A stretch of DNA of 64,000 bases from Corynebacterium ulcerans. GTDB taxonomy: Bacteria; Actinomycetota; Actinomycetes; Mycobacteriales; Mycobacteriaceae. The notes below the pieces were generated by a model that did not search any database, was not told the DNA's origin, and worked only from the letters and a program-made list of their open reading frames with translations. Shown here one piece after another: positions 38,560-49,625 of this stretch (position 1 is the stretch's first letter; the number at the start of each line of letters is the position of its first letter). The translations under genes and the position numbers were made by a program. The DNA is taken from assembly GCF_900187135.1 (NCBI RefSeq), contig NZ_LT906443.1, positions 1,550,001 to 1,614,000 on the forward strand, written 5' to 3'.

Positions 38560-38714
38560 GTTGGGCAGTCTACGGAAATAAAGCAGTACTAGCTGCTGGC
38601 TCTAGACGATGGACTGGATATCGTTCTGTGGCGTTGAACAACGCAAATGCGAGTCGTGTATCCGAAGTGCGTACATGCTCCGTAGGGGTGTGTGGTGACA
38701 TTTGAAAAATGAAT

Positions 38715-38746
38715 GAGCGCCAGGCAGTTCCAACTACCTGACGCTC
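38715..38746 (-). terminator. Hairpin downstream of the CRISPR array, likely end of the pre-crRNA
   Basis: On the minus strand GAGCGTCAGGTAGT pairs completely (with G.U pairs) with ACTGCCTGGCGCTC, leaving a 4-nt loop, and is followed by ATTCATTTTTC. On the plus strand the same positions give A.C mismatches, so the structure belongs to a minus-strand transcript. It lies 120 bp past the last repeat. Confidence 0.65.
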
Positions 38747-38866
38747 GCTTATCACTCAGTACCAGCTGGGGAGAAAGCACGGCTATGAGCTTAGCAACAG
38801 CCCGCTCCATTGCGCAGATCTCGAGCACCAGCGCGTCCGATGAGGACCGCGCAGCCCTACAGCGTC

Positions 38867-39505
38867 ACCTCAATGAAAGGCTGCGACCGAAGCCGCAGCG
38901 ACCCACGCGCATTAAAAAGCGCGCATCTTCACGAATGAAACCTCAATGAAAGGCTGCGACCGAAGCCGCAGCGACGGTGTCACCGGAAAAGCTTGCTCAT
39001 CCCCACCGAAACCTCAATGAAAGGCTGCGACCGAAGCCGCAGCGACCAGCTGCTCAGTCGTCCACGTTTTCATCTCCTGAACACCTCAATGAAAGGCTGC
39101 GACCGAAGCCGCAGCGACTACCGCGATGTAGACCTCCACCAGCGCGAAGTCCGCCTACCTCAATGAAAGGCTGCGACCGAAGCCGCAGCGACCTGCGATG
39201 AGGGTTTTTCGGGTTACTGCTCTGACGTAGTCGGTGTCTTCTGCTCCTAGACCTCAATGAAAGGCTGCGACCGAAGCCGCAGCGACTTTCCCCCACTAAA
39301 TCAGTAAGTGTTCTGTGGGCTACCTCAATGAAAGGCTGCGACCGAAGCCGCAGCGACAGAAGTCCCAGTCCAAGAGAAATCATCGGGGTCATTGACACCT
39401 CAATGAAAGGCTGCGACCGAAGCCGCAGCGACCACACAGCGGTCGTACGCAACCGCGATTAGGTTACAAACCTCAATGAAAGGCTGCGACCGAAGCCGCA
39501 GCGAC
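38867..39505 (-). CRISPR. CRISPR array, nine identical 36-bp repeats, eight spacers
   Basis: Repeats start at 38867, 38940, 39011, 39083, 39157, 39251, 39322, 39397 and 39470. Plus strand: ACCTCAATGAAAGG, then CTGCGACCGAAG, then CCGCAGCGAC. All nine are identical, including the distal one. Spacers are 37, 35, 36, 38, 58, 35, 39 and 37 nt. On the minus strand GCTGCGGC pairs with GTCGCAGC across a cUUCGg tetraloop, with one G.U that becomes A.C on the plus strand. This favours minus-strand transcription, the same direction as the cas genes, with the leader next to cas2. Confidence 0.98.
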
Positions 39506-39698: not shown

Positions 39699-39998
39699 CT
39701 AGATAATCAGAAATTCATTGTCAGTGATCTCTTGTTTTCTGCCTTCGTAAGTAAATGTGGTGTCTACTTTCGACAGCAGTCCAAGATCGCAATATAAAAC
39801 GGAATCTTCCTCAGCATTAATACTGAGTTTTATTTCATCCTTTAGCCGAAGCAGCTTTGCAGGGCTGCAATCGACAACAAAAACGCTGTATTGGATCCTG
39901 TCGCCATATTTTTGCAAGATCTTAGCTAGCTTATTTCGACGTCTATCGTGGGCAATATCGTAGGCGATAATCGTACGACGAACATCATCCCGCCTCAT
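39699..39998 (-). CDS. cas2: Cas2
   Basis: A 99-residue Cas2 with RRTIIAYDIAHDRRRNKLAK (the beta1 Asp of the ferredoxin-like fold), LQKYGDRIQYSVFVVDCSPA and the C-terminal DSVLYCDLGLL strand. It forms the Cas1-Cas2 integrase that inserts new spacers. Its start overlaps the cas4-cas1 stop by four bases, so it is the last gene of the cas operon, next to the leader. Confidence 0.95.
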   Translation of the reverse strand: MRRDDVRRTIIAYDIAHDRRRNKLAKILQKYGDRIQYSVFVVDCSPAKLLRLKDEIKLSINAEEDSVLYCDLGLLSKVDTTFTYEGRKQEITDNEFLII

Positions 39999-41596
39999 CG
40001 TATTTTCACTCCTTTGTATCGAAGCTGGGTTCCGTCTAATACTCCGAGCATCATCCTGGCTTGAACTTCAATTGCGCGCCGCCAGGAAACGCTGTACCCA
40101 AATGTGGGATGTTTGAACTGGGTTTGGATCCTTCGCTCAAAGGCTTTGACTATTTTCTTTCTTCCGTCTGTGGTGAGCGCTTGCCCTTTGTCGCGGATAA
40201 AGAAGTCTCGGGAAGCAATCTCGCGTCGGTTGATCAGCGTTAGAACAACCGAATCAGCTACCACTGGTCGGAACTCCTCCATCAGGTCGAGAGCAGCTGC
40301 TGGTTTGTTTCGATTACTACTGTGCAGAAAACCGGCATGAGGATCTAACCCACAAGCAATGAGCGCTCGTACGCATTCCGCAGTGAGCATTCCGTACGCG
40401 TAGTTGAGCAGTACATTGATGTGATCTTGTGCCCCTCGACCTTTTCTTCCTAGCCACTGGGCTCCCAGGCTATGAAGAGCGGCGTCGTTAAGCATTGATC
40501 CAAAAGATTCAAAATATTTGCTAGCAGCCTCGCCCTCAACCCCAAACAAAGACGGGATGTCGTTTACTGTTCGTGCAGTTTCCTGGAGCCTGCGCAGCGA
40601 TGCAACTGCTTCTTTAGCCGAGCCGTGTCTGCGTAGCATCGTTGCTTGGTTATAGATTTTGGAACTAATAATCTCACTGGCAATAGGAATGAAACCAGTT
40701 TCAGCCAGTACATGTTGCCGGACACGTGCTAGTCCATTTGGCCCATCGCCGGGTAGCATCCAGCCATATAGCCGGCCAGTACTTGAGCACCACACCACTG
40801 GCCGATGCTGCCACGCCAGCTCCCTGATAAGAGCGCTTGAGAGATCAATGTTGCCGTGGAGCACTACTGCCTGAACGCGCTCAATCGGCACGGAACCGAG
40901 AAGTTCTGATTTTCTGTGGACTTCGATTCTTCCGTTTTTCTTTGAAGCACGTGACCCTTGCTCTGTAAGGTGCAGTACTTGGCTGTCAGGGTTTTGAGCC
41001 AGGACACGTCGCTGTGGTTGTCTTTGGAAGAGCTCATCGGGAAGACATACAGATAAGTGGGAGCACCACGTGCACTGCGGATCTTCATCCAACGGGATAG
41101 GAGAAGTACTCGCTTGTGCTATTTCATGAGTTCGTAGCGCTTGATTTTTCGCATGCTCAAAATCGGCAGAATTCAACTCCACTTCGATTGTTTTTCGATG
41201 ATCCGTGAAGTACACAGCATATTCGAGCTTTTTATACCCCATTTCTCTGAGACATATCCCTTGCAAAGCCAGTTGTAGCCTGTTGGCATCAGTGACTATT
41301 GGTGCCTTACGGACAGGAGTTGCTTTGAATTCGACTACTCGTATGGTTCCGTCTGGCAAAGTCTCGAGACTATCGCAGATGCCTAGGATTCCGAGTTCAT
41401 CTGACCAGACTTTTACAGATACTTGTCGGTGGGGCGTGGAAGTTTTGAGGTTATCAACATGGACGTGTGAGCTCTTTCCAGCTTGCATCTGATACGTATC
41501 GGTCTGCTCACCGTTGAGCTCAAGCCAGGTTCTGCGCTCGCAGTATTCGGTGTGCACAACCAAGCTGATTGGGACCGGGTCGATGAGTGCCTGCAT
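39995..41596 (-). CDS. cas4-cas1: Cas4-Cas1 fusion protein
   Basis: A 533-residue fusion typical of type I-G (I-U). The N-terminal Cas4 nuclease domain (about 1-200) has an N-terminal Cys in HTEYCERRTWLE and a C-terminal cluster CTWCSHLSVC, giving the four Cys of a 4Fe-4S cluster, plus a PD-(D/E)xK-like core (IRVVEFKATPVRK). The C-terminal Cas1 domain (about 210-533) includes VVLHGNIDLSSALIRELAWQ, LLNYAYGMLTAECVRALIAC (catalytic Glu), GLDPHAGFLH (His) and DLMEEFRP (acidic residue). It selects PAM-bearing prespacers and integrates them. A gap of four bases follows csb3. Confidence 0.96.
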   Translation of the reverse strand: MQALIDPVPISLVVHTEYCERRTWLELNGEQTDTYQMQAGKSSHVHVDNLKTSTPHRQVSVKVWSDELGILGICDSLETLPDGTIRVVEFKATPVRKAPIVTDANRLQLALQGICLREMGYKKLEYAVYFTDHRKTIEVELNSADFEHAKNQALRTHEIAQASTSPIPLDEDPQCTWCSHLSVCLPDELFQRQPQRRVLAQNPDSQVLHLTEQGSRASKKNGRIEVHRKSELLGSVPIERVQAVVLHGNIDLSSALIRELAWQHRPVVWCSSTGRLYGWMLPGDGPNGLARVRQHVLAETGFIPIASEIISSKIYNQATMLRRHGSAKEAVASLRRLQETARTVNDIPSLFGVEGEAASKYFESFGSMLNDAALHSLGAQWLGRKGRGAQDHINVLLNYAYGMLTAECVRALIACGLDPHAGFLHSSNRNKPAAALDLMEEFRPVVADSVVLTLINRREIASRDFFIRDKGQALTTDGRKKIVKAFERRIQTQFKHPTFGYSVSWRRAIEVQARMMLGVLDGTQLRYKGVKIR

Positions 41597-41600
41597 TGTC

Positions 41601-42632
41601 TTAACCCAACGGAAGCACGGAACCTGGTTGGACTTGCCGTTCCGGTGCGCTCGAACTGCCGGCCTTTTTTATGTCAAACAGTGCTACGGCATTAATCCCA
41701 TGTTCTAGCAGCCATTTGCTTGCTGACACCACCGCAGTAGTGCCGATATCACCTGTCCGGACAATCTCTCCTCCGATGCACGCAATAGCCTCTGACCTAA
41801 GGACAGAGCGTGCTCGGCCTAAGGAGATTGGGGTGGAAGACATGGGAAGAACCATCAACACTGGGTGGAGTGCTTGAGGTGGGAATGCACCCGGTGTTAC
41901 CGATTTTTCCTTGACTTGTGGCGCGAGCTGGAAAGATGCAATGCCCAGTAGACCTACAAATGCAAGAGCTACGTCGGTGGGGCCGGGTGGTGTTAATCCT
42001 GTCGAAGTCCTTGAATCGGGAGAATTCTTTCCTAATGGATCATGGACTTGTTTTCCTTGAATTCCTGCAAGTATGTCCTCGTTTGTCCAGGAGGAAAGTT
42101 CGTCCACCATCAAGCTGAGCCGGTGTTGAACAAACTCTTCTCCTCGATTACGGGTTTTCATTTCCCACCGAGATGCCCCATGATCTGGCCGAGGGGCTTT
42201 TTTCTCATTATGCCAATAGGAAGGTTCTCCTAAAGCTGAGATGAAAGAGAGATCCAGCCAGCGCTTATCCGCAAGAAGCTGATCGACGTGCGACGTGCGA
42301 ATGTGGTGATGTTCTTCCCAATCGTGTGGGGATTTTTCTGCATCAATCGCCTTGATCCGCGGAGAAAAAGGAGCGAATTGTTTCCCGGCGTAGTCTTTTC
42401 GAGCCTTGACCCAAGAAGAATCCTCCGACCACCGAGTTGCTAATTCCCGAATGCGCTGAGCAATGAGGAGGGGATCGTAGATACTTCTTAATTGAGCCTT
42501 GGGTTCAGAGTCTAAAGACCACATCAACCTAACAGAATTATCTCCCATCTCTTCTGCCACAGCTGCTAAGCCCAACAAAGCGAAGTGACTGAGTGCGCTT
42601 GAAGCATCGCCTGCGATATTGATCGTAAACAC
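41601..42632 (-). CDS. csb3: Csb3 (Cas8u2-like small large-subunit of type I-G Cascade)
   Basis: A 343-residue protein, MFTINIAGDASSALSHFALL at the N-terminus and GLLGIASFQLAPQVKEKSVT in the middle, ending after HGINAVALFDIKKAGSSSAP. Sequence motifs are weak; assignment rests on length, general resemblance to the GSU0052/Csb3 group and on its place between cas3 and cas4-cas1 in a locus that otherwise lacks a Cas8. It would act as the PAM-recognising large-subunit equivalent of the surveillance complex. Confidence 0.8.
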   Translation of the reverse strand: MFTINIAGDASSALSHFALLGLAAVAEEMGDNSVRLMWSLDSEPKAQLRSIYDPLLIAQRIRELATRWSEDSSWVKARKDYAGKQFAPFSPRIKAIDAEKSPHDWEEHHHIRTSHVDQLLADKRWLDLSFISALGEPSYWHNEKKAPRPDHGASRWEMKTRNRGEEFVQHRLSLMVDELSSWTNEDILAGIQGKQVHDPLGKNSPDSRTSTGLTPPGPTDVALAFVGLLGIASFQLAPQVKEKSVTPGAFPPQALHPVLMVLPMSSTPISLGRARSVLRSEAIACIGGEIVRTGDIGTTAVVSASKWLLEHGINAVALFDIKKAGSSSAPERQVQPGSVLPLG

Positions 42633-42636
42633 AGAG

Positions 42637-45318
42637 CTACCTTCCTTCCGATGAAACGTGAGCGTCAGCTGCCCGCTGCAAAGCCTCTAAGTAAGCCATG
42701 GCATAAGGGCCGATTGTCCTGTTTGTTCGCTCGATGATGCTGTCCCATTCGCCCTCGGAGAAGAGGTGACGTGCCACTGCCTGTTCTTGATCAGTGGCGA
42801 GCGGGGAAATCATTTCCCAGGAGGAATACGGGAAAGTGGATCTTCCGTGGCCGTGACTGCATCCCACTATCCGCAGGATCAGTTCCGTTTCTGGAGTGTC
42901 ATACCCGAGCTGAACTGCAACTTTGAGGGCGGAAAGCTGCTCATGGCGCCATTTTGGTGGCACACCAGAGATGTTCTTTGCGCGGCGAATCTCTTGTCGA
43001 TTCCTCTGCGCACTTTTGGCCCAGGGTTCCTGATCATCCGATGTTTTTCCACCACGCAACCACGTCTGGAATCGTGGCTCTATTTTTCCGTCATCGTGAT
43101 GCGCTGCTGCTTGGACGACGATCTGGTGGAAGTCATGGTGTAATCCCACACTGGTACACAGGTTGTCTGCTTGTTCAGCAACATCAGCTTGATGCTGTTG
43201 AAGCGTTACCGTCTTGGACGTCGGTGACCATTCCTGGAGAGCCTCTTCTTCTGCTCGGATAGCATCGTCGGTTTCAGTGATGTACCACGGCACTACTGCA
43301 TCAAACCCATGGTGGTGATCGGTTTCAAGCACCATTGTGGAGCACTGAAAGCCCTTTGACCGTTGACTCTCTGTAGGAGTTTCTTCTGGATCTTCGCTTA
43401 GTTCGGCTGCAATCTGTTTAAAGCTTTCGGCCTCTGCTTTGTCCATCGCGGAGTCAAATACATGAACGTCAATTCCAGGAAGTGGAGCTGGGTCGATGAG
43501 TTCGGAGTCTTCGGGCGTCGCCGAGGCGACACCTTCCGTGGTAAAAGGCGTGCCGGGTTCGATAATGAGGATATCGGTAGGACGAAGCGGTTTGTCGTGA
43601 TCGAGTAAAACTACCTCACTGTCTCGATATAAGAATGCGCGGTGTCTAACTGCTGAAGCTTTTTGTTTGAAAGATTCGTCAGTAGGGGCCAATACATCTT
43701 TGAGTCTGTTCAACACCGCGATGTTGGCGGGGAAAGTTTCAAAATCCTGGGGTTTTGTGGCATTGAGTAGTTCTACTGCCGCGTTGAAATCTTCCGGCAA
43801 TGGGGACCGGACAACTACGCCGCCAAGAGCAGGGTCTTTTTCCAACGAGTCTCTTAACCACAGATCCAGGTCTGGTTCGGCAAACAGGGGATCGGTTGTT
43901 CTACATAAATTATGGAGGTCTGCCCATTCCAGGCGCTGCAATAATACCCGACCAGGTGATTCTTCAGGAGCAGGAAGCTCAAGCAATCTTCTCGGATTTA
44001 CTGTTCCGGCCTCTGCTAATTGCTCTAGCCATGCGAGAGAATTGAGGAGATCCTTGCTGGTATAAGGAGGTACATCTGTCTTGATCGCGTCTGCAGTTGA
44101 CGGGATGAGTACAGAAACCTCGCTCCTTACGCGGTGCCCGAGTCGATTGACCCGGCCAAAGCGCTGTGTCAGAGATGATCCTGGTGCGAGTTCAGTGACT
44201 AAGTGGGCAAAATCGACGTCAACGCCAACCTCCATGGTTTGAGTAGCCACCAGCACGTCTACTTCTTGAGAGCCTTGAATGGTGAAAAGCCCTGGTCGCC
44301 GAGCCTTCATCTGTGCAACATCATGCGGCCGCATCCTGCCCACTAAGATTTCGCTGCGTAGACCCTTTTTCTTGAGTATCCGGTGGATTTTTGTGGCCGT
44401 TTCCACGTGGTTTACGATGCAGCCCACAGTGCTGTCTGCATCGGCGCATAATCTGAGGACCTCTTCCACTGCGGTGGCGATGATCTCAGAGTTCTTGGGT
44501 CGCCCATTCCATTTTTTGAGCTTTAAGAGCGAAAGATGCTTGGACGAATCGATGCGCTGAGCAATGACTGGATCACGCTCACAATCTTCCTCGAATACAC
44601 CGATGCTCTGGGCAAGACCTAGGGTTTCAGTAGATGTTGCTGTTGCAGCGACAACTTGCAATCGCGGCACGTGAAGATCTACTTCCAACTCCTGCAATGC
44701 AGCTATACGACGCGCAGTCGTCAGGAGCTGACGATTCAAATGTGACTCGTCGAGAAGCACAACGGCATCCATCGTAAAAAGCGCGGTTTCTCTAGGCCGA
44801 GCTAGCCTTCCGGAACCATAACCTCGGAACAAAGCACGTGATCCCCACATGTCCGGTGTAGCTGCGATGATGGCGCAAGCTTCAAGGCTATTTACCGGCA
44901 GAGTCTTATTTGTGAGCGCGCCTCGTAATCGACTGACGATAAACGGGTCTTGATGTGCATCAGACCTTAAGCTCGTTAGTGCTTGAGATAGTGTTGCCAA
45001 TACCGAGCCGGCTTTAGCCTCTTGCATTGTGCGCAAGATTGTTTCTGCACGATCAATGTGGCTATCTACTAATGCTCGGCGGTTAACCACAACGCTAAGA
45101 CGCCTGGGAACTCGGGGGCATTCTCCCAGGGCATATAAGGCGTTGAGATAGAGGTGTACATCGACAACAGACGACTTGCCAGTTCCGGTGGGAGCCACGA
45201 TCTGTGCCGGCCAGGTGCCTGTTTTCATTACGGCATCGACTAGACGTTGTTGCCACGCGAAAGGACGGTGGCCGTCGTTAAGCTCAGCAAAGAATGCATC
45301 GAAAGTAATGCTAGGCAT
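42637..45318 (-). CDS. cas3: Cas3 helicase-nuclease with C-terminal HD domain
   Basis: An 893-residue protein. The helicase part comes first: Walker A APTGTGKS at 42-49, DESH in place of the usual DEVH/DECH at 190-193, and later helicase motifs (IVNHVETATKIHRILKKKGL; VATQTMEVGVDVDFAHLVTE; LTQRFGRVNRLGH). The HD nuclease is at the C-terminus, with HHDDGK at about 740-745 and GCSHGHGR further on, the order typical of type I-G rather than the N-terminal HD of I-E. It unwinds and degrades DNA marked by the surveillance complex. Its start overlaps the csb2 stop by eight bases. Confidence 0.95.
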   Translation of the reverse strand: MPSITFDAFFAELNDGHRPFAWQQRLVDAVMKTGTWPAQIVAPTGTGKSSVVDVHLYLNALYALGECPRVPRRLSVVVNRRALVDSHIDRAETILRTMQEAKAGSVLATLSQALTSLRSDAHQDPFIVSRLRGALTNKTLPVNSLEACAIIAATPDMWGSRALFRGYGSGRLARPRETALFTMDAVVLLDESHLNRQLLTTARRIAALQELEVDLHVPRLQVVAATATSTETLGLAQSIGVFEEDCERDPVIAQRIDSSKHLSLLKLKKWNGRPKNSEIIATAVEEVLRLCADADSTVGCIVNHVETATKIHRILKKKGLRSEILVGRMRPHDVAQMKARRPGLFTIQGSQEVDVLVATQTMEVGVDVDFAHLVTELAPGSSLTQRFGRVNRLGHRVRSEVSVLIPSTADAIKTDVPPYTSKDLLNSLAWLEQLAEAGTVNPRRLLELPAPEESPGRVLLQRLEWADLHNLCRTTDPLFAEPDLDLWLRDSLEKDPALGGVVVRSPLPEDFNAAVELLNATKPQDFETFPANIAVLNRLKDVLAPTDESFKQKASAVRHRAFLYRDSEVVLLDHDKPLRPTDILIIEPGTPFTTEGVASATPEDSELIDPAPLPGIDVHVFDSAMDKAEAESFKQIAAELSEDPEETPTESQRSKGFQCSTMVLETDHHHGFDAVVPWYITETDDAIRAEEEALQEWSPTSKTVTLQQHQADVAEQADNLCTSVGLHHDFHQIVVQAAAHHDDGKIEPRFQTWLRGGKTSDDQEPWAKSAQRNRQEIRRAKNISGVPPKWRHEQLSALKVAVQLGYDTPETELILRIVGCSHGHGRSTFPYSSWEMISPLATDQEQAVARHLFSEGEWDSIIERTNRTIGPYAMAYLEALQRAADAHVSSEGR

Positions 45319-46888
45319 GAGTCATCTCGCTTGTCATCGTTTCGAATTCACTTCTGGGAATATCCACAGGGATTAACAGACCTCCGCCCAAATGGCGTGA
45401 TTGCCCCAGCGCAATGATCGCTCTATCCTGCTGGAGGCTCCCCAAGTGCACGAGACCTCGCCAAGGTTGGATGGTTAAACTCCTGTTGGTCCTGTGGACA
45501 AAGCGACGGGTATTTCTGCTTACGGGGTGATCATGAAAAATCCGTACATCTGCGTTATAGGCCGCGTCGCGTAGTTCGACATAGCGTGCAGGGCCAGTTT
45601 CCTTGGTCGGGAAGTTGTCGCGCCAGACGAAGGCCACTGAGAGTAAGCCTGCATCCGCCAGGCGCCACAGCACACCTTGTTGCTTATTGTGGGGTCGCGA
45701 TTCTGGGATAAAGACGTTTAATGGCTCCCACATACGGATAGTTCCTGGTTGAGGAGCTGGCCAAAATGCATCGCCTCTGAATACGTGACCGTTGTACTTA
45801 AGCTGGCACAAGAGTTTCCCACCGCTTCTGAGCGGAAAAGGTCCGGTGAGTGCTTGGTTGAGCTGCTCGTACACAGTGGAATCAGCATCTTGGGGGACAA
45901 GAAGCGCGAACGCTGAGGTTTTCAATCCAAGCGCTTCTAAGTGATGATGCGGTATGTATTGGATGGCTAAATTATTTGCTGGTCTTTGTGCCCCAGCTGC
46001 ATAACGCCCAGTGATAACTGGCGAGACATCCGTTCTAATTCTGGCAATAAGGGCTCGATGAAGGGCAACGGCTGCGCGAACCTGTTCTTCCGGCCCCAGC
46101 TGTTTACCGTGTACCTCCAACAAAATGACTTTTGTCCAGGGCGTTGCGCATTCCTTATCCGCAGCGTTGACGCGTAGATAGCGAGCCGTACCTAAGTGGT
46201 CTTTGGGGATCGGAGGATCATGGATCGGGTCATCCTTTAAGAACTTGTCCGCTTTTTTGGAAGGAGGCTTCTTTCCATACCTCGCATGGAACACTTCTCT
46301 GAGGTGCTGAGTACGTCCAGGCAGTGCTATTCGGACTTGAACGCGTTCGGTTGAAAAAGCGGTCGCTTGAGGATCAAGAGTAAGCGTGGCTTCGATTTCT
46401 TGCTGTTCAAGTACTACGAGAGAAGAAGCTTCTCCTAGGCATGCGACATCGGGAAGCAATGCGGTAATGGCTTCTGCTATATCCACGGGCATCTCGTCCC
46501 AGATATACCCATAAGCTCCATTGACGGATACGCCATCGGAGACAGCGCGGTTCTCAAAATTAAGTCTTACGCCAGTTTTGTCGATCTTCACTGAGCCTAC
46601 GTTTCGGTACATCATTCGTGATATATCCGGGGAGAGCCATTGCTGCTCAGGCATCGCTAAACCGGTGGGGGGATGTGCTTCTAACCATTGCAGTGCTTGT
46701 AGCGATTGTTGGTTGGGTCTGAGTTGACGTTCGTTGGGATCTTCTTCTGCATGAACACCTTGAGCTGCCGCATTCATAAGCGCCGCGTGCAACCGAGCCG
46801 GATCGGGATATGCGTCTCGGTTAGCGTCGCCGGTATGCCCCAGGTAGACCCCCAGCGGGAATCTTGCAGTGAGACAATATTTTGGCAT
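45311..46888 (-). CDS. csb2: Csb2 (Cas5-Cas6 fusion, GSU0054 family)
   Basis: A 525-residue protein of the GSU0054/Csb2 family. The N-terminal Cas5-like RRM (MPKYCLTARFPLGVYLGHTG, then PDPARLHAALMNAA) is followed by a long central region and a C-terminal Cas6-like part ending with the glycine-rich loop ALGQSRHLGGGLLIPVD. In type I-G this subunit both binds the 5' handle and processes pre-crRNA. Possible catalytic or binding His lie in the HDHPVSRNTRRFVHRTNRS stretch. It begins three bases after csb1. Confidence 0.93.
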   Translation of the reverse strand: MPKYCLTARFPLGVYLGHTGDANRDAYPDPARLHAALMNAAAQGVHAEEDPNERQLRPNQQSLQALQWLEAHPPTGLAMPEQQWLSPDISRMMYRNVGSVKIDKTGVRLNFENRAVSDGVSVNGAYGYIWDEMPVDIAEAITALLPDVACLGEASSLVVLEQQEIEATLTLDPQATAFSTERVQVRIALPGRTQHLREVFHARYGKKPPSKKADKFLKDDPIHDPPIPKDHLGTARYLRVNAADKECATPWTKVILLEVHGKQLGPEEQVRAAVALHRALIARIRTDVSPVITGRYAAGAQRPANNLAIQYIPHHHLEALGLKTSAFALLVPQDADSTVYEQLNQALTGPFPLRSGGKLLCQLKYNGHVFRGDAFWPAPQPGTIRMWEPLNVFIPESRPHNKQQGVLWRLADAGLLSVAFVWRDNFPTKETGPARYVELRDAAYNADVRIFHDHPVSRNTRRFVHRTNRSLTIQPWRGLVHLGSLQQDRAIIALGQSRHLGGGLLIPVDIPRSEFETMTSEMTHA

Positions 46889-46891
46889 TTG

Positions 46892-48097
46892 TTACTCTGC
46901 CTCTGCGTCGTCTTCAGTGGCTCCGCGCAGTACAACTGGATTGCCTGTGACGTGGAGTATTTGCCCTTCCCAGTCCGAGACTCCGCATGCGCTGGCCTTG
47001 GCAATTGCTTCCTTGAGCAGCTCGTCCGCTGCTTCCACGGAAATAGGTTCTAGTTCACGCTTTTCTCCGTAGCGTAGGTCAAGCGTGACGACCGGCTTTC
47101 CCTGTTCTACAAGGTCGCAGTTTGCCCGAATGTTTAACTCTGATTCGGCGCGTGCCATAGCTGCTAGCCCCAGTGCCGCGAGCAGGGCGCGAGCTGCGAT
47201 GTCTTGCTCTGCGGTGCCGCCGAAGCGCAGCTGGCGAAGCGCAGCAAAGCTCAATGCCCAGGAACGAATGATTCTTTGGCACGCCACTCCACCCAATGAC
47301 TCAAGCGACGGGGGAATTGCACCAAGTCCAAGAGGGGAGGCGGAAACGGTCTCGCCCTTCTTGGCTTTTTTCACCTGATTATCCAGTTTTGAACGAGTTT
47401 TCTGACTTAGCTCATGGCTTTGAACTAAGGCGGTTTCTTTAAGATCAGTTCCGGTCATTTTTACACTGGCGGCCACCGGGTCTACTCGCGCGCCACCGCG
47501 CCGTGAATACGATTCCGCACGGTTCTGGTTGGCTAACACTCCGATGATTTCTCCGACTAAAGCGCTGCGCAGCTTCACTTGGTCGCTTTTACGGCTAGCA
47601 TCCCAGCCGCCAAAAATGAGTGCGGACGGAGCCAAATTGAGTAGCGGTTTCATGTTGCGTGGTGTGGAATTCCGGGCGGAAATATAGAGATCATTCTCGG
47701 TTGTTGGTTTACCGTCGATTGACCCTGCGCGGATATGCCCGTCTGTAAAGCGGTGCGGTAATTCCAAATCGGAGAAGACTTTGCTGTCGTTGTAAGAAAC
47801 TTCGATTCTGGGGATTCGGTTGAGAGTTTCATTCCCCTCGTTGATGGCCTGCATCAGTGCTGCTTCTGCGCGATTGAGCTGAGACTGTTTGGAATCGATA
47901 AGGACAGTTCGCTTGGACTCACCATCTATAAAGCGGTCCTCGAAAGCAAAGACAGGTTCTGAACGATTGACAAACTTTGCAGGTGCGACTGATCCATGCT
48001 GGCCGACTGCGGCCTCGAGTTCCGTTATGGAGGTGAGGACTGAAGATCCTCCTGCGCTGCAGGCCTTAACCAAGTCTGTATAAGAAAGCGTTCCCAT
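46892..48097 (-). CDS. csb1: Csb1 (Cas7 backbone subunit, GSU0053 family)
   Basis: A 401-residue RAMP protein of the GSU0053/Csb1 family: MGTLSYTDLVKACSAGGSSV at the start, then APSALIFGGWDASRKSDQVK, LRSALVGEIIGVLANQNRAE, SRRGGARVDPVAASVKMTGT and a C-terminal ferredoxin-like half. It polymerises along the crRNA. First gene of the cas operon. AAAGGATC lies before the ATG and a sigma-A promoter ends about 69-75 bp upstream of it. This is the gene whose promoter is matched by the pseudo-spacer at 48267-48308. Confidence 0.95.
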   Translation of the reverse strand: MGTLSYTDLVKACSAGGSSVLTSITELEAAVGQHGSVAPAKFVNRSEPVFAFEDRFIDGESKRTVLIDSKQSQLNRAEAALMQAINEGNETLNRIPRIEVSYNDSKVFSDLELPHRFTDGHIRAGSIDGKPTTENDLYISARNSTPRNMKPLLNLAPSALIFGGWDASRKSDQVKLRSALVGEIIGVLANQNRAESYSRRGGARVDPVAASVKMTGTDLKETALVQSHELSQKTRSKLDNQVKKAKKGETVSASPLGLGAIPPSLESLGGVACQRIIRSWALSFAALRQLRFGGTAEQDIAARALLAALGLAAMARAESELNIRANCDLVEQGKPVVTLDLRYGEKRELEPISVEAADELLKEAIAKASACGVSDWEGQILHVTGNPVVLRGATEDDAEAE

Positions 48098-48172: not shown

Positions 48173-48201
48173 ATTCTAGAAAGATAAAGCAGTAGAGTCA
48201 A
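48173..48201 (-). promoter_or_regulatory. Sigma-A promoter of the cas operon
   Basis: Minus strand: TTGACT (48201-48196), 17-bp spacer, TAGAAT (48178-48173). Predicted start near 48166, leaving a 5' leader of about 70 nt before csb1. Confidence 0.75.
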
Positions 48202-48206
48202 TGGAA

Positions 48207-48229
48207 ATATAACATCCGTAATGTTATAT
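48207..48229. promoter_or_regulatory. Palindrome just upstream of the cas -35 element, target of the pseudo-spacer
   Basis: ATATAACAT, CCGTA, ATGTTATAT: exact 9-bp arms with a 5-bp centre, 5 bp from the -35 hexamer. It could be a protein operator. It also lies inside the stretch 48234-48212 that matches the pseudo-spacer of the candidate guide RNA at 48267-48339. Confidence 0.65.
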
Positions 48230-48266
48230 CTCATGTAGATTTTGCTATTTTAAGGAGGAGCAAACG

Positions 48267-48339
48267 CAGTAACTTTTACTGTTGGACATCCGTCCTTGGA
48301 TAGCTCATCCCTAAATGAAAGACCGCGCTTGCTCACGAC
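48267..48339 (-). ncRNA. Candidate crRNA-like regulatory RNA (CreR/CreA type): degenerate repeat plus pseudo-spacer
   Basis: 48309-48339 is a shortened copy of the CRISPR repeat: the first 19 plus-strand positions agree at 15 (CCCTAAATGAAAGACCGCG) and the far end keeps CGAC. On the minus strand it reads GTCG, a small hairpin (CGUG/CGCG), then CTTTCATTTAGGG. The following pseudo-spacer from 48308 matches the cas upstream region from 48234 at nt 1-5 (ATGAG), 7-9 (TAT), 13 and 16-23 (ACGGATGT). A hairpin CAGTAA-AAG-TTACTG ends it at 48267-48281. TATGCT (48349-48344) could be its -10. It would guide Cascade onto the cas promoter. Confidence 0.65.
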
Positions 48340-48376
48340 TAAGCATACTGAAATAGCGCGGAAGGAGGCTGTAGGC

Positions 48377-48775: not shown

Positions 48776-48832
48776 AACATAACACTTAACTTCCCACTTA
48801 ACATAACACCGTGGGAAGTTAAGTGTTATGTT
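48776..48832. terminator. Bidirectional terminator, exact 22-bp stem
   Basis: AACATAACACTTAACTTCCC plus AC, followed after 13 nt by the exact complement. The stem overlaps the stop codon region of the lipase gene (minus strand) and would also end rightward transcripts from 48377. Confidence 0.85.
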
Positions 48833-49625
48833 CGGTGCGCACGTGCTTTTTAGCGGTAAGACGTTCCACTCGTTCTAGTTCGCTGAGTACGATGCGTCGT
48901 ACGCGGCGATCATGGGGAACGTCTTCATGGAGAACTATTGCGCGCTTTGACACTGCTTGTACGTATATATTGCGGACGAGGGGGCCGGTGAGAAAACAGG
49001 ATTCCACTGGCTGAATGATGGTGTCTGATTTTGTGGTGATGCAGGAGTAATAGATGCCGGGCAGTGTATCGCCGTTGGCGTTGAGCTCTTGGATGAGGTC
49101 GCTTTCGGCAAGCATCTCAAATCCCGAGGCCCCAAAGAAGTTTGTGATGATGGAATCCACCACGACTGTGCCGCGGGCAGTGCGGGTAAGAGGACTGATA
49201 ACACCGCCGTGGGAGGTGCCATGATTGGGAACTGCGAGACAGATGAGGTGCGTGACGTAGCGGGCTCCATCTAAGTGATGCATCCAATACCTGGCGAGTA
49301 TTCCGCCCTGGGAATGCCCGACAAGGATCACTCGCTCGGCGCCGGTGACTTTGAGCACGGCATGGATATATGCGCCGACCTGGTCTGCTGATTCGGCCAC
49401 CGCGGCGGTTGATCGCATCCCAAAGTCGGGTGCGAAAACCGCGTAGCCTTTCTTACGCAGGTCTGTGCCCAGTTCCATCCAGTCGCCTTTGGTCACCCCG
49501 GTGCCATGGATCAAAATCACTGGGTAGGGGTGTCGCGAGGTAGGGCGGGCGCGCCAGTCGTCTTCAAAAAGCCCTCGTGCCGGAAGCCGCGCGGAGAGCG
49601 GCAGTGGAGCGTCGATAATTGCCAT
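48819..49625 (-). CDS. Alpha/beta-hydrolase, triacylglycerol lipase-like
   Basis: A 268-residue hydrolase. Oxyanion-hole region PVILIHGTGVTKGDW, nucleophile elbow VGHSQGG with the catalytic Ser, the following RYWMHHLDGARYVTHLICLA typical of the lipase class-2/EstA group, and a C-terminal His in VLHEDVPHDRR. No signal peptide, so probably cytosolic. Likely substrate: esters or acylglycerols. The 3' end lies in a strong terminator stem. Confidence 0.88.
   Translation of the reverse strand: MAIIDAPLPLSARLPARGLFEDDWRARPTSRHPYPVILIHGTGVTKGDWMELGTDLRKKGYAVFAPDFGMRSTAAVAESADQVGAYIHAVLKVTGAERVILVGHSQGGILARYWMHHLDGARYVTHLICLAVPNHGTSHGGVISPLTRTARGTVVVDSIITNFFGASGFEMLAESDLIQELNANGDTLPGIYYSCITTKSDTIIQPVESCFLTGPLVRNIYVQAVSKRAIVLHEDVPHDRRVRRIVLSELERVERLTAKKHVRTEHNT

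Follow-up and report, generated by a model that had tools for sequence, protein, structure and literature searches.

Comparative evidence for a circularly permuted crRNA-like element that may guide the type I-G Cascade of Corynebacterium ulcerans and its relatives to their own cas operon

The type I-G CRISPR-Cas locus of Corynebacterium ulcerans has, upstream of csb1, a degenerate CRISPR repeat followed by a spacer-like sequence that partially matches the region of the cas promoter. Is this match a guide by which the Cascade complex represses its own genes, or is it a leftover of a local duplication? The window that we analyzed is a stretch of 64,000 nt (assembly GCF_900187135.1, contig NZ_LT906443.1, positions 1,550,001 to 1,614,000), and positions below are those of the window unless a locus is named. 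An initial annotation of the segment 48207..48339 had proposed a CreR/CreA-type element in type I-G, with tandem duplication as the main alternative.

Profile matches revealed a type I-G gene set in the window (csb1, csb2, type I-G cas3 and a cas4-cas1 fusion), accompanied by a CRISPR array:
46892..48097, minus strand: csb1 (cas7g), first gene of the putatively targeted operon (NCBIfam TIGR02570, 68.1 bits, cut-off 38)
45311..46888, minus strand: csb2, a Cas5-Cas6 fusion and the predicted processing enzyme (TIGR02165, 268.5 bits, cut-off 45)
42637..45318, minus strand: cas3, type I-G (TIGR02621, 669.3 bits, cut-off 400)
41601..42632, minus strand: gene in the csb3 position, a large-subunit candidate (sub-threshold match to NF049934, type I-G "Cas3-extension", 29.3 bits, cut-off 65)
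39995..41596, minus strand: cas4-cas1 fusion (NF049935, 451.8 bits, cut-off 560; TIGR00287, 250.3 bits, cut-off 71.7)
39699..39998, minus strand: cas2 (TIGR01573, 48.1 bits, cut-off 24.5)
38867..39505, minus strand: CRISPR array of 9 repeats of 36 nt and 8 spacers, oriented as the element

The Cas4-Cas1 protein scored over the cut-offs of the general Cas1 and Cas4 models and under that of the I-G fusion model. Read on the minus strand, the array repeat is GTCGCTGCGGCTTCGGTCGCAGCCTTTCATTGAGGT, with its 9 copies at 38867-39505. One array spacer (39193-39250) is 58 nt long, versus the usual about 35-39 nt, with a repeat spacing of 94 there. An Rfam scan of the window found nothing at the guide element; its sole match was a ctRNA_pGA1 just past the end of the array (38700-38778, minus strand, 55 bits, gathering 45). 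pGA1 is a corynebacterial plasmid, and this match represents the antisense RNA of a plasmid replication unit, perhaps a plasmid remnant. A perfect 22-nt inverted repeat (AACATAACACTTAACTTCCCAC ... GTGGGAAGTTAAGTGTTATGTT), noted by eye at 48776-48832, at the 3' end of the next gene (48819-49625, minus strand), is probably a terminator.

The sequence details of the initial annotation were borne out. The degenerate repeat at 48309-48339 has the orientation of the array and agrees with its repeat, by hand count on the plus strand, at 15 of the first 19 positions. Within the 700 nt upstream of csb1, 48339-48309 has 2 mismatches to the last 12 nt of the array repeat, and the next best place has 4. 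A search of the whole 2.45-Mb genome for the handle motif CTTTCATT[GT]AGG gave 10 sites, the 9 array repeats and the element, and a reversed-pattern control gave 0. Ungapped alignment of 48308-48286 to 48234-48212 agrees at nt 1-5, 7-9, 13 and 16-23 (17/23), exactly as had been claimed, and the promoter TTGACT-N17-TAGAAT lies at 48201-48196 / 48178-48173, the order on the minus strand being TAC, target, TTGACT-N17-TAGAAT and csb1. The unit of shrunken repeat plus spacer had to be redrawn, since a 13-nt arm at 48334-48322 pairs with 48270-48258 beyond the guide; the predicted functional unit is 48334-48258. The closed outer stem, with its circular permutation, the element's own -10 box and a prophage-borne copy, all described below, were absent from that annotation. 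The parts are as follows:
48342..48347, minus strand: -10-like box TATGCT of the putative guide-RNA gene, ending 7 nt before the 5' arm (TANNNT kept across loci)
48322..48334, minus strand: outer-stem 5' arm (GAGCAAGCGCGGT), standing where a CRISPR repeat stem would have its 3' half (13 bp with 48258-48270)
48317..48321, minus strand: CTTTC linker from the stem to the predicted Csb2 cut (5 nt, same as in the array repeat)
48309..48316, minus strand: 8-nt 5' handle ATTTAGGG (ATTGAGGT in the array repeat), from the repeat-end match
48271..48308, minus strand: 38-nt guide (pseudo-spacer), with the match to the cas promoter region in nt 1-23 (48308-48286)
48258..48270, minus strand: outer-stem 3' arm (ACTGCGTTTGCTC), standing where the next repeat would have its 5' half (pairing, covariance)
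48235..48237, minus strand: PAM TAC adjoining the target (TAN across loci)
48212..48234, minus strand: guide target, upstream of the csb1 promoter (17/23 nt)
48196..48201, minus strand: -35 hexamer TTGACT of the cas promoter, 33 nt after guide position 1
48173..48178, minus strand: -10 hexamer TAGAAT of the cas promoter

When the repeat-like handle was used to anchor the start of the guide, a score of 17/23 was not reached by any of 300 dinucleotide-shuffled guides on either strand of the 700 nt upstream of csb1; without this anchor, the guide/target pair of the window ties with a chance pair.

A search of 242 genomes of the genus for csb1 gave 14 matches, 11 of them near-full-length, at 57-100% identity, and csb1 was also sought in samples of 401 family, 397 order and 394 class genomes. 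The element was found upstream of csb1 in all 11 same-genus genomes with a close csb1 (the window and loci L004-L013, whose upstream regions were compared). It was also present in 5 of 15 more distant relatives (L027-L030 and L052), these 15 being ten with a single near-full-length csb1 match at 48-55% identity (L027-L031, L049, L051-L054) and five g29 relatives in which csb1 was matched in two pieces (L032-L035, L043); the presence counts leave out L014-L016, L040-L042, L044-L048 and L050 (upstream mostly masked). Five of the ten single-match relatives outside the genus had no element (L031, L049, L051, L053, L054), and a search of 8-20 kb in five element-less relatives gave one seed plus TAN match (L061, 13/23), which came from an array spacer. 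Within 600 nt upstream, allowing up to 2 mismatches, no handle was seen in the g29 relatives, and in L036-L039 there was one match, in L038, with nothing else supporting it. The upstream region of L055 has two handle-like sites. Where present, handles track the array repeats by lineage (CATTGAGG in the genus, CGTTGAGG in g8), and a repeat-like handle of the cognate type thus lies beside the cas operon, as in CreR elements.

To locate guides and targets we applied a blind rule, in which the best match to the last 12 nt of a locus's own repeat fixes the handle, the next 23 nt are the guide, and the best ungapped target on either strand is taken, with 300 guide shuffles for each of 18 loci. The rule returned a TAN-flanked target in 13 of the 18 (window, L004, L005, L007-L010, L012, L013, L028-L030 and L052), and all of these were fully matched at positions 1-5 except L028 (4/5). 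No shuffle reached the observed score in nine of the 13; it was reached by 1 of 300 in L005, 8 in L012 (a fair match), 39 in L010 (a weak one) and 282 in L030. The rule erred in three loci, with the target of L006 one nt out of register, the handle wrong in L011 and the target wrong in L027, and it found nothing in L031 and L051. PAM and seed are kept in L006 and L030, in which the 23-nt ungapped match is not above shuffles (234/300 and 282/300). When pairs were sought in 17 loci with no use of the handle, the guide/target diagonal came first in 12 and tied with other pairs in the window and L027; other pairs came first in L006, L029, L030, L031 and L036. The counts that follow cover 16 loci, with the targets of L006, L011 and L027 set by seed and PAM.

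Each of the 16 guides has its match next to a TAN, in DNA upstream of the cas operon, and complementarity to the cas promoter region is partial and starts from the PAM side, again as in CreR. Guide positions 1 to 8 are matched in 16, 16, 15, 16, 16, 3, 16 and 14 of the 16 loci, positions 12 and 18 in 6 each, and the match fades after position 23, with 1-7 matches at positions from 24 on. Mismatches at positions 6, 12 and 18 fill 33 of 48 cells, versus 50 of 288 at the other positions in 1-21, an excess that none of 20,000 within-row permutations equaled, with the seed included or left out. In the subset of 12 loci without L006, L011, L027 and L030, mismatches fell at position 6 in 10, at 12 in 7 and at 18 in 6, with 6 at position 15 as well. 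Picking targets by their match cannot make mismatches at a fixed position. In type I effectors, Cas7 flips out bases with a 6-nt period, and the rhythm of mismatches at 6, 12 and 18 in the aligned loci is this period of Cascade, here deduced from mutations only.

The PAMs of the 16 targets were TAC in 12, TAG in 2, and TAA and TAT in 1 each, TAN having helped to set the targets of L006, L011 and L027. Natural spacers point to the same PAM. Of 14 array spacers from five related genomes with protospacers in phages or prophages (10 regions of phage matches were taken and all 10 scored for PAM), 11 had TAN (TAC 8, TAT 2, TAA 1) and the rest TGC, CAC and CAC, counting the best protospacer for each spacer and counting both of two spacers that share a protospacer. 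For one spacer, other phages contained weaker protospacers, with AAC, TGC and TAC. Array spacers of L019 gave no match in phages, and against the 242 genus genomes their protospacers were mixed with array cross-hits; of the 8 loci scored from that search, L083 and L094 had no spacer at >=76% and L086 and L089 overlap L079. Excerpts of one report describe use of a TAT PAM by the type I-G system (csb1-csb2-csb3) of Bifidobacterium lactis (PMC12915315). The targets thus carry the PAM expected for the subtype, TAN being found in targets and natural spacers.

The initial annotation had named independent divergence of guide and target in related loci as evidence against a guide. The opposite was observed. 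Over 19 positions (1-22 minus 6, 12 and 18), the mean number of agreements is 15.3 for own guide/target pairs and 6.3 for mixed ones (maximum 14). In 15 of 16 rows no other target scored as well as the own one; only the L006 guide fits a foreign target, that of L007, better. Judged from these comparisons, guide and target change together between species.

A second feature separates the element from an ordinary repeat-spacer unit. In the window, the 10 same-genus loci and L052 (12 loci), the sequence before the handle pairs with the sequence after the guide. In a test of all 16 loci with 200 shuffles each, no shuffle equaled this stem in nine loci (window, L006-L009, L011-L013 and L052), and 1, 4 and 39 did so in L005, L010 and L004, the others in the permuted set. 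The stems of L027, L028, L029 and L030 (13, 64, 49 and 60 of 200) were not outstanding and the characteristic distances were absent; by eye, these four loci resemble a two-repeat form. L004 was left out of alignment A2, the pair count and covariance model R1 because its 3' arm was misplaced by 3 nt in alignment A1. In A2 (11 sequences), 95.5% of the cells of the 12-bp stem are paired, versus 69.7% in shuffles. All 12 pairs have changes on both sides, with 32 doubly changed cells versus 7.2 in shuffles. None of 500 shuffles reached any of five measures, and a slide by one column lowered pairing to 28-34%. Arms of the same locus form 11.25 of 12 pairs on average (12 loci) and arms mixed between loci 7.9. 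Being G+C-rich and partly alike, mixed arms still reached at least 9 of 12 pairs in 47 of the 132 combinations. In the csb1-proximal copy of L004, only 9 of the 12 stem pairs form. The outer stem is not a copy of the genome's own repeat stem.

The spacing of the parts is that of a normal crRNA. In 11 of the 12 loci the stem is 5 nt before the handle and the handle 38-39 nt before the stem (L004 has 7 and 38, or 5 and 36), and the crRNAs of the same genomes have 5 nt in the repeat and spacer medians of 35-37 plus 3 nt. Mean pairwise identity of the linker is 0.92 (12 loci). According to excerpts of work on Thioalkalivibrio Csb2, that enzyme leaves an 8-nt handle, cuts 4 nt from the stem base and is located at the 3' hairpin (PMC9638904). 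The equal distances, taken with this known cut, indicate that the predicted RNA is a circular permutation of the order handle-guide-hairpin, with the loop opened and the ends moved there. Consequently, we propose that in these 12 loci the element is a circularly permuted crRNA, new here, in which one stem encloses handle and guide, and not a repeat-spacer-repeat unit; the CreA-like arrangement of a guide between two repeat-like units with their own hairpins was not found in any of them. All 11 same-genus loci have a TANNNT box 6-9 nt ahead of the 5' arm (11 of 12 when L052 is counted), against a background of 8.6% for a window of 3-10 nt and with arm starts set by hand. Given this box before the stem, the transcript probably starts at the stem. 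By eye, guide tails of L004, L005, L006, L007 and L010 have a small hairpin after the matched part (e.g., GAGC-TTTG-GCTC, GGGC-TTCG-GCTC), which can fold and would keep the tail off the DNA. Our literature search, in which the primary CreR paper was not included, found no description of a permuted crRNA or of a type I-G CreR, and we do not claim that none is in print.

Model R1, which includes the window sequence, scored 48333-48259 at 56.7 bits. Run over the 242 genus genomes with filters that lose weak matches, it gave 16 matches of at least 37 bits, 10 of them csb1-proximal elements and six others. For 10 of the 11 genus genomes the proximal element, in each case part of R1, scored 53-71 bits, and the unused L004 scored 28.4 bits. 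Array units (half-repeat, spacer, half-repeat) scored weakly, up to 33.8 bits, which is consistent with permutation; the L004 proximal copy scored no better. In two genomes, G036 and G041, element and target are duplicated upstream of csb1, with guide and target kept in both copies. The second copy of G036, with its own target, lies 872 bp from the first (the two copies are at L140 7558-7632 and 8430-8504). That of G041 is intact, lies about 1.2 kb upstream of csb1 (the two copies are at L017 13967-14042 and 12962-13037) and scores 56 bits; as R1 was built without any G041 sequence, it constitutes an independent test. It has its own TAC-flanked target (20/23), followed by an apparent broken csb1 start (a csb1-like fragment), and its guide fits the target before the intact csb1 at 19/23. 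Its presence may explain the poorer stem of the csb1-proximal copy in the same genome (locus L004).

We consider it highly probable that a permuted crRNA-like small RNA guides the type I-G Cascade to the region upstream of csb1 and thereby represses the cas operon. Read from sequence, the case consists of the element, its PAM, the co-variation of guide and target, the 6-nt rhythm, the closed stem with compensatory changes and the -10-like box, and on these comparative grounds it is the evolutionary signature of a CreR-type guide in type I-G. The proposal of the initial annotation is in this way supported by 16 loci that co-diverge, always with TAN and with mismatches at 6, 12 and 18. Transcription, processing by Csb2, loading, repression and the sensing of crRNAs would then proceed as follows. 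A small RNA gene with its box at 48347-48342 would give an RNA of about 48334-48258 on the minus strand, an 8-nt handle and 38-nt guide within a closed stem in which the 3' half of the repeat stem comes first and the 5' half last. After cutting at CTTTC^ATTTAGGG, Csb2 would remain attached to the stem, and the product would be equivalent to a mature crRNA with a 3' hairpin composed of two separate strands, in a Cascade of ordinary size. Upstream of csb1, next to the TAC PAM, that complex would bind the DNA by some 23 base pairs with interruptions, presumably too few to license cutting, and, sitting on or against the -35 box, would repress the cas operon. Transcription of cas would rise once Cascade is drawn off by array crRNAs or anti-CRISPRs. 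Excerpts of two reports describe cas autorepression by Cascade with CreR, released when crRNAs or anti-CRISPRs draw Cascade off (PMC12737573, PMC13131331). In the consulted part of a type I-B study, 24-bp spacers repressed without deletions and 28-30 bp caused deletions (PMC10989794), and a pairing limit near 23-24 nt fits the former. The cas promoter is clear in some loci only; where it is (window, L004, L006 and L007), the distance from guide position 1 to the start of the -35 is 28-42 nt, and a complex of full size would therefore overlap or adjoin the box. By eye, the csb1 leaders of L004, L006, L007, L008, L010, L011, L012 and L013 have a short hairpin shortly before the start codon (e.g., GGAC...GTCC, TTGGAAC...GTTCCAA), possibly a second layer of control.

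The guide might instead act as a CreTA-like antitoxin: between the target and csb1 there would be a toxin RNA or mini-ORF that it silences, and cas repression would be secondary. Known CreA elements share the guide logic and sit in cas loci, according to excerpts of PMC10097628, csb1 has a long leader (69-118 nt in the window, L004, L006 and L007), and the L004 leader has, by eye, a short ORF behind GGAGG. However, the nearest promoter downstream of the target is csb1's own, and inspection by eye noticed no toxin and no mini-ORF common to the leaders. We regard this reading as unlikely.

Still less probable, to the point of being very improbable, is the reading of the initial annotation's main alternative, that the similarity of pseudo-spacer and target is the functionless leftover of a duplicated promoter segment. 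Both segments are on one strand in the window, about 75 nt apart, and the region does duplicate, as the doubled elements and targets of G036 and G041 demonstrate. However, the element is opposite in orientation to cas in L011, L012 and L027, as are element and target both in L052, and the match is kept in each; this fits a diffusible RNA and is not predicted by a cis-acting repeat or a tandem duplication. Identity, moreover, does not extend beyond guide positions 1-23 and is mostly lost at 6, 12 and 18, the similarity starts after the handle and after the TAN, and guide and target co-change. We rejected tandem duplication based on the inverted loci and the mismatch pattern. That the RNA is a Racr-like decoy that only titrates Csb2/Csb1, its guide irrelevant, as excerpts of PMC10651486 describe for a solitary prophage repeat in type I-F, is hardly credible for a guide that follows one DNA place with PAM and Cascade periodicity across species.

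Copies of the element were also found away from csb1. Three similar orphan permuted elements occur in G219, G110 and G017 (L136 9850-9924, L137 9155-9229 and L138 9399-9470), genomes with no csb1 and no Cas3 over cut-off. Their guides gave no seed plus TAN match in 18 csb1 upstream regions, apart from one of 9/23 for G017. The neighbors are gluQRS for two of them and an IS481 transposase for one. An extra copy in G052 lies on another contig (C37:16636-16710, minus strand; L139 9637-9711), downstream of endolysin, tail and tape-measure genes, and an identical element is present in the IMG/VR contig L199 (252-326, minus strand). The phage genes upstream and the identical IMG/VR element indicate that this copy is prophage-borne. 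Its guide has its first 8 nt in common with the chromosomal guide of G052 and, of the 18 csb1 upstream regions, has seed plus TAN in that of its own host only (TAC; 12/23), the seed match being positions 1-5 plus 7-8 and weak beyond position 8. A viral scan gave at least 120 stretches with GCCTTTCATTGAGG; R1 gave 1 match (L199) among the 80 loci searched from those listed, and stricter patterns returned the same contig or none. The prophage, G219 and window elements had no match in a phage collection, and the G219 element had none in plasmids.

We hypothesize that the prophage RNA makes the host Cascade shut its own operon, which would make it a candidate RNA anti-CRISPR by mimicry of CreR. 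The broader reading, that permuted crRNAs are a natural class, with a single stem serving as both cut site and 3' hairpin, that represses cas in type I-G hosts and has been taken up by phages as anti-CRISPR RNA, as in the G052 prophage, is offered tentatively, at a little under even chances, because there is one such case and its match is weak beyond position 8. The orphan copies in G219, G110 and G017 may be remains of the same traffic.

Overall, comparative evidence from 16 loci would extend guide-based CRISPR self-repression to type I-G. The permuted architecture would be a natural single-stem guide design with which to probe the substrate needs of Csb2 and the tolerance of Cascade for a split 3' hairpin, and the prophage copy makes a putative new anti-CRISPR strategy directly testable. 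As guide and target are short and well defined, these claims are decidable by simple reporter and RNA experiments.

Several known systems resemble the one proposed here. In type II-A, tracr-L is a natural guide RNA by which the effector represses its own operon; self-repression by a natural guide is shared, whereas tracr-L involves Cas9 and a tracrRNA isoform, an unrelated RNA. The prophage-encoded, repeat-like RNA of the G052 copy recalls Racr and the solitary repeat units of phages, but Racr, in the excerpts of PMC10651486, leads to an aberrant Cas subcomplex, whereas the G052 copy has a guide with a seed match to the host cas control site. CreA of CreTA (types I-B and I-F) shares degenerate repeats, a partial guide, a PAM-flanked target and Cascade as repressor; it differs, as far as the excerpts of PMC10097628 go, in its psiR1-psiS-psiR2 order and in silencing a toxin gene, the target here being the cas promoter region. 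Closest is CreR, likewise a crRNA-like RNA near cas with a PAM-side partial match in the cas promoter region and Cascade-guided autorepression, here predicted. CreR is named for types I-B, I-E and V-A in the excerpts of PMC13131331, whereas the element described here belongs to type I-G and, in place of two repeat-like units, has one closed stem in a permuted arrangement.
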